Shown piece after piece: positions 23,243 through 30,926 of a DNA stretch of 33,514 nucleotides. The stretch spans positions 1 through 33,514 of the forward strand of contig JAJRVY010000032.1 of NCBI GenBank assembly GCA_024277065.1. The letters run 5' to 3'. The position numbers and the translations under genes are program-made. Position 1 is the stretch's first letter, and each line of letters starts with the position of its first letter. The notes under the pieces are model-generated. The model did no database searches, was not told the DNA's origin, and was given only the letters and a program-made list of their open reading frames with translations. The stretch is from Planctomycetota bacterium (GTDB taxonomy: Bacteria > Planctomycetota > JAJSAM01 > JAJVHW01).

Positions 23243-24196
23243 TCAGATCGCCGGCGCGCCCAGCGCGGCGGCGACGCGCGCGCCGAGGGCTTGCGGGCTC
23301 TCGTCGGGCGCCACCTCCAGCCACGTGACCCCTGGAAAGCGCTTCCACCACGTAGTCTGGCGGCGGGCCAACCGCCACGTGTGGGCGCGGATCGACTCGC
23401 GCGCCGCGGCCAGCGCGCCGGGGTCGCCCGCGGTGCCGGCGCGAACGAGCGGCACGAGTTCCTTGACGCCGATCGCCTCCGCCGCCGTCGGGCCGAGATC
23501 GCCTGCGGCCACGCGCACGGCGATCTCGGTCACGAGGCCCTCGGCGATCATCCGCGCGACGCGGCGCTCGATACGGTCGCGCAGATCCTCGCGGCTGCGC
23601 CACAGCCCGACGGCGCGATACGGGACGCGGGGCTCGCCGTCCCATTCGCGCTGCACCTCGCTGATGGGGCGGCCGGTCTTCTCATGGACCTCGAGGGCGC
23701 GCAGGAGGCGCTTGACGTCGTTGGCGTGGATGCGCGCGGCGGCGACGGGATCGACGTGGCAGAGGCGCGCGTGCAAGGTGCCCGGCGCGGCCCTCTCCTC
23801 GGATCGCAGCCGGGCGCGCAGCTCGTCGTCGGCCGCAGGCCCTGCGAAGAGCCCGAAGAGCAGCGCCTTGAGGTAGAGCGCCGTGCCGCCGACGACGAGC
23901 GGCACGTGGCCGCGGGAGCGGACGCCGGCGATGGCCGTCTGCGCCATCTCGCTCCAGCGCGCGGCGTGCAGGCGTTCGCTCGGCGCCAGGCAACCGACGA
24001 GATGGTGGGGTACCCGTGCCGCGTGCTCGGCCGGCGGCGCCGCCGCGGCGATCGAGAGCCCGCGGTAGGGCTTGACGGAGTCGGCGACGATCAACTCGGC
24101 GCGGAGCAGCGGTGCGGCGTGGACGGCCGCGGACTCCTTGCCGCCGGCGGTCGGACCGAGCAGCACGAGGAGCGGTGTGGTCGAGGAGCCTTCCAT
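23243..24196 (-). CDS. miaA: tRNA dimethylallyltransferase MiaA with altered P-loop
   Basis: 317 aa from ATG 24196 (GTG 24208 is 4 codons upstream). MiaA adds dimethylallyl to A37 of tRNAs reading UNN codons. C-terminal signatures are intact: VGGTALYLKALLFGL, NDVKRLLRALEVHEKTG, RDRIERRVARMIAEGLVTE, and WRLARRQTTWWKRFPG. The N-terminus departs from the family: the P-loop reads GPTAGGKES, with Glu at the position of the Ser/Thr that coordinates Mg-ATP; spacing to the ADS motif equals that of E. coli MiaA, so this is a substitution, not an insertion. The next motif, normally DIGTAKP, reads SIAAAAP. The catalytic Asp of ADSVKPYRG is kept. Either the enzyme tolerates this or it has lost activity. 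No frameshift is seen. Confidence 0.9.
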   Translation of the reverse strand: MEGSSTTPLLVLLGPTAGGKESAAVHAAPLLRAELIVADSVKPYRGLSIAAAAPPAEHAARVPHHLVGCLAPSERLHAARWSEMAQTAIAGVRSRGHVPLVVGGTALYLKALLFGLFAGPAADDELRARLRSEERAAPGTLHARLCHVDPVAAARIHANDVKRLLRALEVHEKTGRPISEVQREWDGEPRVPYRAVGLWRSREDLRDRIERRVARMIAEGLVTEIAVRVAAGDLGPTAAEAIGVKELVPLVRAGTAGDPGALAAARESIRAHTWRLARRQTTWWKRFPGVTWLEVAPDESPQALGARVAAALGAPAI

Positions 24197-24251
24197 GACC
24201 TCCGGCACCGGTGTACGCGGCGCCCCTCAGGACGACGGAGAGGACGCGAAC

Positions 24252-24729: not shown

Positions 24730-24757
24730 CGGAAAAACCCTACCCCGTGCGGGTTTC
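24730..24757 (-). terminator. Possible terminator overlapping the end of nadD
   Basis: On the minus strand CGGAAACCC and GGGTTTTTCCG flank a 10-nt loop that contains the nadD stop codon (TAG, 24742-24740). Two extra T residues bulge from the stem. The T-run is in the stem, so this is a weak call. Confidence 0.3.
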
Positions 24758-25408
24758 CGATCCAGCCGCGCCGGCCCCGCCCGTGCTGTACAGATGACGC
24801 TGCGCGATGTAGTCGGCGACGGCGTGCGGCACCCAGCAGCGGATCGACTTCCCGGCAGCCGCGCGCTGTCGCACGAGGGTCGATGAAATGGCCTCCGTGG
24901 GGGTCGCCAGGACGTGCCCGCGAAGGCCGTCCACGACCTCGCTGCCGAAGGCTGCGCGCAGCCGTTGCCAGGGCGCCTCCGCCGCTCCGCGGCGGGGGGC
25001 GATCACGATTCGCACGAGGCGGACCAGATCCTCCGCCCTGTGCCACTGCGGCAGGATGTCGAGGGCGTCCTGGCCGAGGAGCAGCAGGATCTCCTCGCCG
25101 GCGCCCGGTCCGCTCAGAAGCCACTCGACGGTGTCGATGGTGTACGAGACGCCGCCCCGGCGGACCTCCACGTCGAGGACGTCCAGGAGCGGATGGCCAT
25201 CGACGGCGCGGCGCACCATCTCGAGGCGGTCGGCGGCCGACGCATGGGCGCCGTGGCGCTTGTGGGGCGGGTCCGCCGCCGGCACCAGGCTGACGATGTC
25301 CGCGCCGACGAGCTGCCCCGCCGCCTCGGCGACGAGGACGTGCGCCGTGTGGATCGGATCGAAGGTGCCGCCGTAGAGCAGTCGCCTGTACGGCCGCTCG
25401 TGGATCAC
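24740..25408 (-). CDS. nadD: Nicotinate-nucleotide adenylyltransferase NadD
   Basis: 222 aa from GTG 25408, which overlaps the cvpA-family stop by 4 nt (GTGA); the longer frame into the upstream gene is out of frame with it. NadD makes deamido-NAD from nicotinate mononucleotide and ATP. Motifs: YGGTFDPIHTAHV (residues about 12-24; the family has HxGH, here HTAH), VPAADPPHKRH, ADRLEMVRRAV, YTIDTVEWL, LLLGQDALDILPQWH, and the C-terminal ISSTLVRQRAAAGK. The Gly-to-Ala change in HxGH is the only departure and probably tolerated. Length is normal. It is translationally coupled to the CvpA-family gene. Confidence 0.95.
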   Translation of the reverse strand: MIHERPYRRLLYGGTFDPIHTAHVLVAEAAGQLVGADIVSLVPAADPPHKRHGAHASAADRLEMVRRAVDGHPLLDVLDVEVRRGGVSYTIDTVEWLLSGPGAGEEILLLLGQDALDILPQWHRAEDLVRLVRIVIAPRRGAAEAPWQRLRAAFGSEVVDGLRGHVLATPTEAISSTLVRQRAAAGKSIRCWVPHAVADYIAQRHLYSTGGAGAAGSETRTG

Positions 25409-25911
25409 GGGTGGCGCAGATCCTGGATGCGGTGGCCGAGGTGCGACGGGAAGAGCGGTGCGAGCCCGGCCTCGTAGACGGTCACGAGCGCCTTCCCGGC
25501 GCAACTCGGGGCGAGCTGCCCTTCGTAGGGCCGCGGTGAGCCCCACACGGTCAGGGATAAGAGGATCAGTCCGGCGGTGGCGCCCGCGAGTGCCCCTACG
25601 ACGCCCCCGAGCCAGCCGTCGTGCCGGAACCGCCAGCGCTTGGTCAACGGCTGGAGCAGCACGGCAAGTGCGATGAACGCTGCCGCACAGAGGCCGAACA
25701 CCACCGTGTGCGCCACCCACGGGGCGTCGCTCTGGGGCAGCACGACGATCTTGTGCAGGTACGGTTCCGCGAATGGCCGGAGCACGCCGGTCAGCGCCGC
25801 GGCGGCCAGCACCAGCGTCAGTTCCAGAGCCGCCCACGCAAGTCCGCAGCGCGCGCCGTCGAGAGCCGCGAGCGCGACGAGTGCGAGTACACCGAGATCG
25901 AACCAGGTCAC
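25405..25911 (-). CDS. CvpA-family membrane protein
   Basis: 168 aa from GTG 25911 (upstream frame extension to 26106 is Arg/Pro-rich and not family-like). The start VTWFDLGVLALVALAALDGARCG matches the CvpA/colicin V production family, which begins with a conserved WxDxxxxxxxxxxxxxGxxxG stretch. Four hydrophobic helices are visible (about 4-22, 25-45, 65-90, 100-125), with KRWRFRHDGWLGGVVGALAGA the typical central loop and helix. The family is associated with envelope maintenance and, in E. coli, with expression near purF; the molecular function is poorly known. It overlaps the nadD start by 4 nt, so the two genes form an operon. Confidence 0.8.
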   Translation of the reverse strand: MTWFDLGVLALVALAALDGARCGLAWAALELTLVLAAAALTGVLRPFAEPYLHKIVVLPQSDAPWVAHTVVFGLCAAAFIALAVLLQPLTKRWRFRHDGWLGGVVGALAGATAGLILLSLTVWGSPRPYEGQLAPSCAGKALVTVYEAGLAPLFPSHLGHRIQDLRHP

Positions 25912-26301: not shown

Positions 26302-28398
26302 CTACAGGATTGTCAGAAGCTCCGTCAGGGACGGGACCAGGCCGATCGCTCGGAAGTTGATGTCGCGGGCGACGCGCGAGAGCGTCGGAACGTCACGACG
26401 GTCGCCGATCTGGCCGAGGGCCACGGTGGCGAGGGCGCGCGTGATGTCCGGGTACTTCTTCTCCGTGTCGGCCGAAATCTCCAGCAGGGGCGCGATGGCC
26501 CGCTCGTCGCCGATCTGGCCGAGGGCCAGGGCGACGGAGCCGAGGATGAACTGGCTCTCCTCACCGGACTCGAGGATCTTGACGAGTTCGCCGATGACGG
26601 TCGCGTCGTTCATGAGCCCGGCGGCGATCGCGGTCTGCACGCGCAGGTCGCGATCCGTGTCGTCGGCCAGGGCCGCGCGGATGGCGTCCCGCGAGTTGGA
26701 GTCGCCGGTCATGCCGAGCGCCACGGCGGTGTAGCCGCGCAGGCGCTTGTCGGCACCGCGGTCCGAGAGCACGCCCACGAGTTCGGGGACGGCCAGCGGG
26801 TCACGCACGAGCCCGGAGGCGATGGCGTAGGCGCCGCGCGCCCGCGGGTCGCCCTTGGCGCCCTCGGCGAACTTCAGCCGCAGCGGCTTGCGGATGTCTT
26901 CCTCGCTGGAGGACATCGTGCGGCCGACGAGCCCCATGGCGAGCGCCGCGAAGGGCTGCGAGATGTTGGCCGGCTTGCCCTTGTCCAGGTGGTACTTCAG
27001 AGCCTTGACCGTGTCGGAGCGGACCTTCTCATCGACGCCGTCGGCGGCTGCCAGGCGCCCCAGTGCGATCATCGCGAAGTTCCGCTCCGATCCGTCTTGG
27101 CCGTTCTTCGCAACGCTCTTGAGAGTGCCGATGATCGCGTCCTGGACCTTGGTCTCGCACTGTGGCGCGATCTGCCCGAGCGCGATGGCGGCCGAGCGCC
27201 TGATGTTCTTCTCGGCCTTCTTCTTGCCCTTGCCCGTCAGCAGCGAGGTGATCTTGTCGATGACCGCGTTGGCGTCTTCGTCGGTGCCCGGGCGCCCGAT
27301 CTTGCCGAGGGCCTGCACCGCGAACGCGAGCTCGTAGTCCTTGAGGGCCTCGGCGCCCTTGCGATCGACCTTGCCGTTGTCCAGCATGAAGAGCAGGTCG
27401 GGCACGGCCTGCTCGTTCTCGAGAAGGCCGATGGCGACGAGTGACGCAGGCTTGATGTCCGGCTTGGACTCCTTGCCCTGCAGGATGTTCATCAGCGCTT
27501 CGTAGGTCTGGTCGAACTTGTCGTTCTCGGCGCCGAGGAGGCCGAGCGAGATCGCCGCGAACGGGCGCACGAACGACGCGTTGCGGTCCTTGTCGGAGAT
27601 GAGCTGGATCAGGAACTCACGGTTCTCGTCCGAGTCGTCCTGCAACAGGCCGAAGGCCAGTGCGGCCGACTCTTCGACCACGCGGTGGTACTTGCCGGAG
27701 CCCGTCTTCTGGTTCAGCGCCATGCGCTTGAGTGTCGGGACGATCGTCTTGTCGCCGATCTTCGCGAGCGCCAGCGCGGCGGCCGACTGGATGTCGAAGT
27801 TCAGGTCCTCCTCGTCGAGCATGGCCTGCAGCGCGGGAACGATGTCGTTCTGGATCGCCGCGTCGGTGGCCGACTTGATCTGGTTGGTCCTGCCCTTCTT
27901 GCGTCCGAAGACGTGCACGGCCGTGCCGGTGCCGGTCTGGGCCTTCTTGATGGCGCTCTTGAGCTGGAGGATGTCGTCCTTGTTGAAGTTCCACCAGAAC
28001 GTCCAGTCCTCGTAGCCCGGGCCCTTCTTGCGTGACGTCGGACGTCCCGCGCCGCCGGTCTTGGCGCCGCCGGTGCCACCGCCGCCGGTGCTGGGGCCGG
28101 TGCCGCCGCCACCCGTCGTCGGGCCGCCGCCGTCGCCGCCGCCGGTGCTGGGACCGCCGATGTCACCGCCGCCCGTGGTCGGGCCGCCGGTCTCGCCACC
28201 GGGGGTCGTGGGGCCGCCGCCCTCGGGCGGGGGCGGCGGGTCCGAGGGCTCGCGGCTGTCGGGCGGCACCTCGCCGGCCGGGCCGCGGTAGGCGCCGCCG
28301 TGAGCGAACGCGTCGCTGCCGAGGCCGGGGGCGGCCAGGAGCAGCGCGGCGCTCGCCATGATGGTCAGGGGCAGGTGCGTGGTCAGGTTCAAGCGCAT
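26302..28398 (-). CDS. Secreted HEAT/PBS-lyase-repeat protein with Gly/Thr-rich linker
   Basis: 698 aa from ATG 28398 with AAGGAGGA about 8 nt upstream. Residues 1-32 are a signal peptide (LPLTIMASAALLLAAPGLG...AFA). Residues about 40-120 are a low-complexity linker of GGPTTGGG / GGPSTGGG type units. From about residue 165 to the end there are many helical HEAT-like repeats of about 35-45 residues with the pattern ALALAKIGD, ALGKIGRPG, AIALGQIAP, ALGRLAA, ALGMTGD, ALALGQIGDERAIAPLL, VALGQIGDRRDVPTL. HEAT solenoids bind proteins; no catalytic domain is visible. It is probably periplasmic or surface-exposed. It lies between PrkA-type kinase gene and cvpA-nadD, all on one strand, but has its own terminator, so likely monocistronic or second after prkA. 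Confidence 0.9.
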   Translation of the reverse strand: MRLNLTTHLPLTIMASAALLLAAPGLGSDAFAHGGAYRGPAGEVPPDSREPSDPPPPPEGGGPTTPGGETGGPTTGGGDIGGPSTGGGDGGGPTTGGGGTGPSTGGGGTGGAKTGGAGRPTSRKKGPGYEDWTFWWNFNKDDILQLKSAIKKAQTGTGTAVHVFGRKKGRTNQIKSATDAAIQNDIVPALQAMLDEEDLNFDIQSAAALALAKIGDKTIVPTLKRMALNQKTGSGKYHRVVEESAALAFGLLQDDSDENREFLIQLISDKDRNASFVRPFAAISLGLLGAENDKFDQTYEALMNILQGKESKPDIKPASLVAIGLLENEQAVPDLLFMLDNGKVDRKGAEALKDYELAFAVQALGKIGRPGTDEDANAVIDKITSLLTGKGKKKAEKNIRRSAAIALGQIAPQCETKVQDAIIGTLKSVAKNGQDGSERNFAMIALGRLAAADGVDEKVRSDTVKALKYHLDKGKPANISQPFAALAMGLVGRTMSSSEEDIRKPLRLKFAEGAKGDPRARGAYAIASGLVRDPLAVPELVGVLSDRGADKRLRGYTAVALGMTGDSNSRDAIRAALADDTDRDLRVQTAIAAGLMNDATVIGELVKILESGEESQFILGSVALALGQIGDERAIAPLLEISADTEKKYPDITRALATVALGQIGDRRDVPTLSRVARDINFRAIGLVPSLTELLTIL
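28030..28230 (-). repeat. Coding repeat for the Gly/Thr/Pro linker of the HEAT-repeat protein
   Basis: Tandem GC-only units, read on the minus strand as GGxGGCCCGACCACGGG-like codons, encode GGPTTGGGDI, GGPSTGGGDG, GGPTTGGGGT and GPSTGGGGTG, each about 9-10 residues. It is an in-frame low-complexity array, likely prone to length change, and forms a flexible spacer between the signal peptide and the solenoid. Confidence 0.8.
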
Positions 28399-28406
28399 CG
28401 GCCGGT

Positions 28407-28446
28407 CCTCCTTCGCGGGGGCTCGCCTCCTTCGTGGGGGCTCGCC
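28407..28446. repeat. Two-copy 19-bp direct repeat upstream of the HEAT gene
   Basis: CTCCTTCGCGGGGGCTCGC is followed at once by CTCCTTCGTGGGGGCTCGC, one mismatch, immediately before the HEAT-gene start. The first copy contains the AAGGAG of the ribosome binding site (minus strand); the second copy duplicates that site 19 nt further upstream. Confidence 0.75.
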
Positions 28447-28676
28447 TCTCGTAACTCAGGTGATTCACGTATCCGTGTGGCAGCGTGGCAGCGTTGCAGC
28501 AGATCTCAAGGATCACCGCCACGTTCGGTGTGCCGCAATCGAGATGCCAGCGCGGCGGCGGCGTGTTCTCGGCGACACGGTTGCACAACTTCAAGGGTAG
28601 CAGGGAGTTGCGACGCACGGGAGGCAACGGCGGGCGAATCGCGCGCGCCCCGCGGTGTTACCGCTTCGCCACGCCG

Positions 28677-30926
28677 TTACGCGCTGCTCCCCTCGCTGAC
28701 CTCGTCGCGCAGGTGGTCGAGGGCGATCTGCACGGCGTCCTTGGCGCAGTGGGCGCAGTATCCTGGAGTCTCCGCCGTGAGGTTCTCCATCGTGCGCGCG
28801 GCGACCGCGCGATCGTCCGCCCCGAGATCGTCGAAGGACGCCGAGCCGTAGAGCAGGACGTGGCGCTGGACCTTCTCGACCAGGCCGCGGCGGTCTTCGA
28901 AGAAGTTGCGCCGCATGGCGCGATGGAGATCCGGGAAGAGTTTGCGGAAGTCGATCGGCTGCTCGTCGGGGTGGTCGAGTGCGTGGGCCCCGATGCGCGA
29001 GACGAGGTCGCTGCGGTAGGTGTCCACGTCGCCCGTGATCGGGAGCAGGCGCTCCACCGACTCCAGCAGACGCGCGTCGGCGGGCTCGCGCCGCCCCGTG
29101 TTGGGGTCGCGTACGAGGCTGCCCTGGATCTTCGCCACGACGTGCTGGAAGTACGTGTCGAAGCGGCGGTCGTACTCGCCCTCCGGCACGAGGGCCATGG
29201 CCTGCTGGACGTCGGCCAGTATCCACACGCCGAGCTCGTGTGTCGCGGCGCGCAGCAGCGCCGCGGCGTCGTGGTACGTGCCCTGGGCCTCGACCTGCAG
29301 GAAGCGATACAGCGAGGGGTCCGAGATCATGTCCCGCAGTTCGGCGAGCAGGGCCGAGGGCGACACGCACGCGGCGTCGTCGCGCACCGCCGCCTGCATC
29401 AGCGCGGCGCGCATCTCGCGCACGCTGGCACCGACGCGTCCCTCGTACCAGGTCGTGTGGCGGTACTCGTCGCGCAGCCGCGGCACCAGGCTGCGCAGCT
29501 CACGGGCGTTCGTGCCGTCGAGCCGGTCGGGCACCCGGCCCTCGGCGTAGAGCAGTGCCTTCTCGAGTGGCGTGAGCTCGTGCACGAGTCCGTGCACGTG
29601 CGGCGGGTAGTGCTCCTGCTGCGGCTGGTGCAGGCGCGTCAGCACCGCGAAGAGCGCGCAGGTCTCGGCGATGTGCGGTCCCACGTGCCGGCTGCGCGCC
29701 ATCTCGGCCGCGATCGAGCGATAGACGGCGACCTCCTTGCCCGTCTCGCGCAGGTAGGGCACGCGCACGAAGGCCATGCGGGCCTGGAACGAGGCGAACT
29801 CCGGGAGTTGCTTGAACGCCTCGAGGTGGCGCTCGTTGGCCGTCGCGAGGAACACCACGTCGAGGTCGAGCAGCAGGTTGCCGACGGTGACGAAGCCCTT
29901 CTCGGTCGTCTGCAACAGGTACTTCGAGAGCTCCAGGTTGCGCTTGAGGAAGTCGCTGAACTCGAGCACGCCGCGGTTGGCGTCGGCTAGGTCGCCGACG
30001 ACCTCGAACAGGGGGAGCGATTGCAGGTGCGCCGGCAGTCCGGCGAGACCGCCGTCGCCCGAGACCATCCGCAACTGTGCGTCGGCGGTGCCCTGTGGCT
30101 GCGTGACGACGGCGCCCGACCGGAAGCGTCGCGAGATGAAGATGCGCTCGACCTGCACGTGGCGCACGACGCGCCGCCAGTCGCCGTGGTAGGCCGACAG
30201 CAGGGCCTCGTAGATCTGCTTGCAGCGCGGACACAGGTTGCTGTCGAGGTAGTGCCGGAAGGACTCGCTGCGCCGCTGCGGGCGGCGTTCCAGCGCCGAC
30301 TCGAGCAGCGCCGGCCGCTCCGAGTCGGGCACGACGAACAACGGGTTGCAGCGCAGTTCGCAGACGATGCGCGCCGCGACGTGCTCGGGTTCGAGGAGGG
30401 CGTAGGAATCCGGCTCGTCGTCGGCGGCGCGGGCGCCGCCGAATCCCAGGCCGGTCCCCTCGGGCGCGGTCCTCGGGAAGATCCAGCGCAGCGCGTACAG
30501 CGCGCCGTCGGGCTGGTGGCTGTAGAGCTCGAGTCCCCACTGCAGCAGCTCGACGAGGCTCGACTTGCCGGAGCCGTTGGGACCGTGCAGGACGATCATG
30601 CGGTCGAGGCGCCCCTCACGGGCCGCCGCCGAGATCGTCTCGACGACGTCGCGCTGGGCCTCTTCCTGGCCGATCAGCGCGGCGACGCCGTCGGCGGGTG
30701 CGCCGTCGAAGAGCCGCCAGCGCGTGACCTCGCCGCCGATGCCCGGTACGGCGTACGAGCCGCCGTGCTCGATGACGTCGCGCATGTACTGCTCGGCGTT
30801 GCGCACGAGCAGGTACGGATCGGCGGAGAATTCGGCGAGGAGGTCGTCGAAGGTCAGCAGGCGGCGGTCACCCGCGAAGCGCTGCGCCACGCTTCGTGCG
30901 ATCCGATCCGAGGGCGAGGTCTCCAT
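28677..30926 (-). CDS. PrkA-type serine protein kinase (AAA+ with kinase-like C-terminal domain)
   Basis: 749 aa from ATG 30926, with no strong ribosome binding site. PrkA proteins carry an AAA+ ATPase domain and a C-terminal region proposed to have serine kinase activity. Walker A is GPNGSGKSS (115-123). Then follow LCPRCKQIYEALL (C232, C235), VRHVQVERIFISRRFRSGAV, NRGVLEFSDFLKRNLELSKYLLQTTEKG, LDVVFLATANERHLEAFK (Walker B / sensor), and VRVPYLRETGKEVAVY. Another CxxC pair is at the C-terminus (GYCAHCAKD). It is about 100 aa longer than E. coli YeaG (about 640 aa). The usual partners YeaH and SpoVR are absent here. It diverges from an unknown 388-aa gene. Confidence 0.87.
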   Translation of the reverse strand: METSPSDRIARSVAQRFAGDRRLLTFDDLLAEFSADPYLLVRNAEQYMRDVIEHGGSYAVPGIGGEVTRWRLFDGAPADGVAALIGQEEAQRDVVETISAAAREGRLDRMIVLHGPNGSGKSSLVELLQWGLELYSHQPDGALYALRWIFPRTAPEGTGLGFGGARAADDEPDSYALLEPEHVAARIVCELRCNPLFVVPDSERPALLESALERRPQRRSESFRHYLDSNLCPRCKQIYEALLSAYHGDWRRVVRHVQVERIFISRRFRSGAVVTQPQGTADAQLRMVSGDGGLAGLPAHLQSLPLFEVVGDLADANRGVLEFSDFLKRNLELSKYLLQTTEKGFVTVGNLLLDLDVVFLATANERHLEAFKQLPEFASFQARMAFVRVPYLRETGKEVAVYRSIAAEMARSRHVGPHIAETCALFAVLTRLHQPQQEHYPPHVHGLVHELTPLEKALLYAEGRVPDRLDGTNARELRSLVPRLRDEYRHTTWYEGRVGASVREMRAALMQAAVRDDAACVSPSALLAELRDMISDPSLYRFLQVEAQGTYHDAAALLRAATHELGVWILADVQQAMALVPEGEYDRRFDTYFQHVVAKIQGSLVRDPNTGRREPADARLLESVERLLPITGDVDTYRSDLVSRIGAHALDHPDEQPIDFRKLFPDLHRAMRRNFFEDRRGLVEKVQRHVLLYGSASFDDLGADDRAVAARTMENLTAETPGYCAHCAKDAVQIALDHLRDEVSEGSSA

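Follow-up and report, generated by a model that had tools for sequence, protein, structure and literature searches.

A Planctomycetota MiaA with Glu in place of the Walker-A Ser/Thr: a probable working tRNA A37 dimethylallyltransferase and one case of a recurrent variant marked by Lys45

Few residues of P-loop enzymes are as conserved as the Ser or Thr that follows the P-loop Lys, but the miaA gene in the window (the whole 33,514-nucleotide stretch analyzed, from a Planctomycetota draft assembly) encodes Glu at this place, which raises the question of whether its product still prenylates A37 of tRNA. In P-loop NTPases this Ser/Thr ligates Mg2+, as does Ser230 of MnmE (PMC6310460). Mutagenesis of E. 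coli MiaA assigned Lys23, Thr24, His67 and Arg217 to DMAPP binding, Lys56, Arg167, Arg170 and Lys280 to tRNA binding, and Thr19 and Tyr47 to stabilisation of the transition state, with Asp42 as the general base (PMC8234997). Thr24, which helps to bind DMAPP in canonical MiaA, would also ligate Mg2+ in this enzyme by analogy with other P-loop enzymes. E. coli numbering is used below except where residues of the window protein are named as such.

Read from the minus strand, the gene has an ATG start at 24196 and a stop codon at 23243-23245; the program-made ORF list opens it instead at a GTG at 24208. Its product, which reads ...LLGPTAGGKESAAV...ELIVADSVKPYRGLSIAAAAPP..., scored 217.8 bits against the TIGR00174 profile (cut-off 148.65) and 228.2 bits against PF01715 (cut-off 23.6). 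The latter was the single match in the whole assembly, so that no second miaA or other gene of the IPPT family was found with PF01715 in this 4.4 Mb, 362-contig draft of approximately 92% completeness. The closest named relative is a Planctomycetota MAG, OFTM316. Comparison of the window protein with tRNA enzymes gave 98-170 bits, against 46.5 bits with a plant adenylate enzyme. An AlphaFold model (pLDDT 96.2) contains the P-loop core and the tRNA-binding insertion domain, and its nearest solved folds are those of E. coli MiaA bound to tRNA-Phe (TM 0.78-0.83); tRNA enzymes occupied places 1 to 10 of the fold ranking and adenylate enzymes places 11 to 13. Neither the sequence nor the predicted fold thus points to an adenylate isopentenyltransferase of the Tzs or plant IPT kind.

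Two neighboring loci, both on the minus strand, were recorded in passing. The ORF finder gave a nicotinate-nucleotide adenylyltransferase (24740-25837) about 150 additional N-terminal residues, and its real start may be further downstream. At 26302-30926, a PrkA-type AAA protein (28677-30926) adjoins a HEAT-repeat protein (26302-28398).

Table 1. The miaA gene of the window and the residues discussed in the text (positions in the window).
Feature	Position	Strand	Basis or remark
miaA, 317 aa	23243..24196	minus	sole IPPT gene of the genome; TIGR00174 and PF01715
P-loop GPTAGGKE	24134..24157	minus	translation and codon reading
Glu21 (GAG) replacing E. coli Thr24	24134-24136	minus	codon reading
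Asp39, catalytic base, E. coli Asp42	24080..24082	minus	alignment; role from PMC8234997
Lys42, E. coli position 45	24071..24073	minus	present in all 54 sequences without the Walker-A Ser/Thr
SIAAAAP replacing DIGTAKP (E. coli 51-57)	24035..24055	minus	fixed in the family except for the first residue
Gly68 replacing conserved Asp71	23993..23995	minus	family-wide
Val244 replacing conserved Tyr251 (GYKE to GVKE)	23465..23467	minus	family-wide
Arg212, E. coli Arg217, diphosphate/leaving-group Arg, kept	23561..23563	minus	alignment

The first-pass annotation had described the two altered motifs correctly: the P-loop context is GPTAGGKES, the loop context is GLSIAAAAP, and the P-loop Glu (21) and the catalytic Asp (39) are 18 residues apart, a spacing equal to that of positions 24 and 42 in E. 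coli. The canonical Walker-A pattern GxxxxGK[ST] is not matched, Glu following the Lys. The protein is identical to E. coli MiaA at Thr19, Lys23, Asp42, Tyr47, His67, Arg167, Arg170 and Arg217. Seven of the ten residues implicated by mutagenesis in E. coli are identical and an eighth is changed conservatively (K280R), leaving Thr24 and Lys56 as the only losses. E. coli MiaA (TIGR00174; PDB 2zm5, 3foz) therefore shares with the window protein its fold, domain order, GPTAxGK, Thr19/Asp42/Arg217 and Arg167/Arg170, but differs by Thr24 to Glu, Leu45 to Lys, D51/G53/T54/K56 to S/A/A/A, D71 to G and Y251 to V. The change at position 45 (Lys42 of the window protein), the most important of these features, those at Asp71 and Tyr251, and the occurrence of the Glu beyond this one protein were not among the points made earlier.

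Three further genomes of the same family carry miaA, with products 71, 65 and 70% identical to the window protein, and in all three the Glu is likewise encoded by GAG and IAAAAP recurs. No miaA was found in a fourth relative, whose genome is 76% complete (G003). The order shares the Glu at position 24, as far as its members were read (G005-G008), and the residue is scattered elsewhere in the phylum. A wrong P-loop codon, through faulty sequencing or assembly, could be suspected in a 362-contig draft, and the miaB gene of the same genome does contain an isolated in-frame TAG; the presence of Glu at the same codon in the three other family members and in the order makes an error extremely improbable, and this explanation was rejected. 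Members of the family are 60-72% identical in amino acids and 44-52% identical at third codon positions. The altered loop belongs to the best conserved stretches of the family (columns 37-58 are 82% invariant, against 50% overall), and all four members have replacements at D51 (Glu in two of them), G53, T54, K56, D71 and Y251. Of the two readings proposed in the first-pass annotation, decay or repurposing as a tRNA-binding protein finds no support in this fixation of the substitutions; a second miaA, which was to favor repurposing, was not found in the genome. The other reading, a functional enzyme whose metal or substrate binding is altered, gains indirect support from the single copy, the 7/10 retained residues and the fixation in the family. 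Conservation of the residues across a clade with demonstrated i6A37 had been named as contrary evidence, and the conservation across the clade, which is one half of it, is present.

The extent of the change was examined in an alignment of 152 MiaA rows from 71 families, made up of 150 Planctomycetota sequences, a divergent paralogue and E. coli MiaA. Thr occupies position 24 in 47 rows and Ser in 51; the other 54 have Gly (21), Glu (14), Asn (7), Asp (5), His (3), Lys (3) or Ala (1), and the loss of the Walker-A Ser/Thr is spread over 37 of the 71 families. The divergent paralogue is a second IPPT gene of a member of the same order (L039; G008 contig C17:55716-56432), reading GPTATGKT...DSRQVYLGMDLASGKD, which occurs alongside a normal miaA. 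Lys at position 45, in a DSxK motif that can be read without doubt in alignment, was found in all 54 loss sequences, in 16 of the 51 with Ser24 and in none of the 47 with Thr24; viewed from the other side, Ser/Thr was lost in 54 of 70 Lys45 sequences and in 0 of 82 without Lys. Outside the phylum, a small panel (15 genera from plasmid-collection records, and E. coli) showed Ser/Thr24 in all members and Lys45 in none. A profile scan of viral contigs revealed no viral copies, and no report of a MiaA variant of this P-loop/Lys45 type was found in a literature search, which covered few subscription papers.

When all residues in all columns were scanned, Lys45 ranked first (p 4e-27; next best column 5e-7), a lead of twenty orders of magnitude in raw p-values that ignore relatedness. 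With one row per family the association remained (36/0 vs 12/24, p 3e-10). A likelihood test of correlated evolution gave LR 63.8 (p 5e-13) for 151 rows and LR 40.3 (p 4e-8) for one row per family, compared with LR 8.9-26.2 on the larger tree for six control columns drawn from the best-ranked ones. Where Lys is present, Ser/Thr is lost at a fitted rate of 1.8-2.6 per unit length; where it is absent, the fit runs to the lower bound of the rate. Parsimony on trees built without columns 24 and 45 needs 17-22 changes of the Ser/Thr-loss state and 15 of Lys45; these counts are rough because many inner branches of the gene tree are weak (51 of 148). A test of independent pairs was underpowered, few informative ones being available on branches with good support. 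In families f13 and f52 members that bear Ser already carry Lys45, which is consistent with Lys45 having arisen before the Ser/Thr was lost, and Lys45 is not strictly a replacement, as its co-occurrence with Ser24 indicates.

That the loss recurs only alongside Lys45 suggests a compensated site that still works rather than decay, and on this evidence the window MiaA appears to be a member of a recurrent Planctomycetota variant, neither decaying nor a lone oddity. The gene probably encodes a working tRNA A37 dimethylallyltransferase with a rebuilt diphosphate/metal site (probability approximately 70%), an activity predicted here from the sequence comparisons and the model.

In the model, the residue at position 45 directly follows the second strand, three places beyond the catalytic Asp, and a long basic side chain there could plausibly reach the diphosphate. 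In the proposed mechanism, the ammonium group of Lys45 would extend into the diphosphate/metal site and supply the charge or contact otherwise given by Thr24 (with Mg2+), whether it takes the place of the metal or holds the diphosphate beside one ligated elsewhere. Position 24 would then be free to vary, and Glu, Gly, Asn, Asp, His, Lys or Ala could have appeared there on repeated occasions. A salt bridge between Glu24 and Lys45 is unlikely to be the reason for the Lys, which is found just as well with Gly, Asn, His, Lys or Ala; with position 24 so little restricted, a pairing of Glu with Lys in particular is not the issue. His67 is kept in 34 of 54 loss sequences and 9 of 16 with Ser24 and Lys45, against 78 of 80 others, Lys45 enzymes often having Tyr here, and this greater freedom fits a rebuilt diphosphate site. 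The stronger form of the proposal, that the lysine replaces the pair of Mg2+ and Walker-A Ser/Thr and that metal-independent tRNA prenylation has evolved repeatedly in Planctomycetota, is put forward tentatively.

It is considerably less likely that Lys45 has an unrelated role, for example in contacting the tRNA backbone or in packing the loop, and merely tolerates the loss of Ser/Thr, while another group or a water shell keeps Mg2+ in an ordinary active enzyme. The 16 sequences with Lys45 and Ser24 are in keeping with such a role, as are the differences at His67 and at position 280 in Lys45 enzymes, which indicate that the surroundings have changed too, and a neutral permissive change would require no new chemistry. 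The strict dependence of Ser/Thr loss on Lys, and a signal at position 45 far above that of any other column, argue instead for a direct link with position 24.

A housekeeping enzyme that has lost its Walker-A Ser/Thr many times, always with one lysine, amounts to a natural mutagenesis series, which bears on the handling of diphosphate and metal by a P-loop prenyltransferase. It also makes the P-loop motif alone a poor ground for calling such proteins dead enzymes. In some ABBA-fold prenyltransferases basic side chains do the work of Mg2+, and MiaA would join them if the lysine does replace the metal.

The loss of DIGTAKP is a second, separate change, limited in the present sample to the family of the window. 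As a general partner of P-loop loss it was rejected, Lys56 being retained in 49 of the 54 loss sequences. The other Planctomycetota MiaAs with GK[E/G/N/D/H/K/A] and DSxK resemble the window protein in combining Walker-A Ser/Thr loss with Lys45, but nearly all of them keep the GTxK loop, the AAAA loop being found in this family alone. In this family the DIGTAK loop has changed together with Asp71 and Tyr251. Most of these replacements are found in other phyla, alone or in combination, and each thus seems tolerable. Alphaproteobacterial MiaAs (Sinorhizobium, Sphingomonas) likewise have D51 and G53 replaced, K56 changed, D71 to G and Y251 to V, but differ from the window protein in their canonical Ser24 and Gln45, in keeping Thr54, and in that K56 becomes Arg. 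T54 is changed to A in Xanthomonas, and K56 to A in Parabacteroides and Vescimonas. The combination of the loop changes with Glu24 and Lys45 was seen in the family of the window alone.

The Glu24 and the AAAA loop together might mean that this family has lost catalysis and keeps MiaA as a tRNA-binding protein. Two residues defined by mutagenesis are gone (Thr24 for DMAPP, Lys56 for tRNA), six otherwise conserved positions are changed in this family alone in the 152-row sample, and the miaB gene of the source genome is interrupted. However, the family is invariant at Asp42, Thr19, Arg217 and Lys23, for which a protein that only binds tRNA would have no use, while Lys56, a tRNA-binding residue, is the one missing; the change of Lys56 to Ala recurs in Parabacteroides and Vescimonas, the genome lacks a second miaA, and miaB is intact in the other four family genomes. 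Loss of catalysis is accordingly considered improbable, and an active, rebuilt enzyme is preferred.

MiaB matches above the family cut-off were detected in 55 of the 59 genomes of the relatives set. The single MiaB-family gene of the source genome (L161:594-1988; G000 contig C42:30393-31787) has an in-frame TAG (VGFPGETAA*FAATRS) at a codon that is Glu in the four family relatives, and is either an assembly error or a pseudogene. Downstream use of i6A in the source organism is therefore uncertain.

Candidate substrates for the predicted enzyme are present in the genome. Nine tRNAs with A36 were found (Phe, Leu-CAA, Leu-UAA, Ser-CGA, Ser-UGA, Tyr, Cys, Trp and Sec), and all nine also have A37 and A38, completing the A36-A37-A38 motif recognized by MiaA. 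The tRNA-Sec gene in this set (L205; G000 contig C230) suggests that selenocysteine may be used in the source organism.
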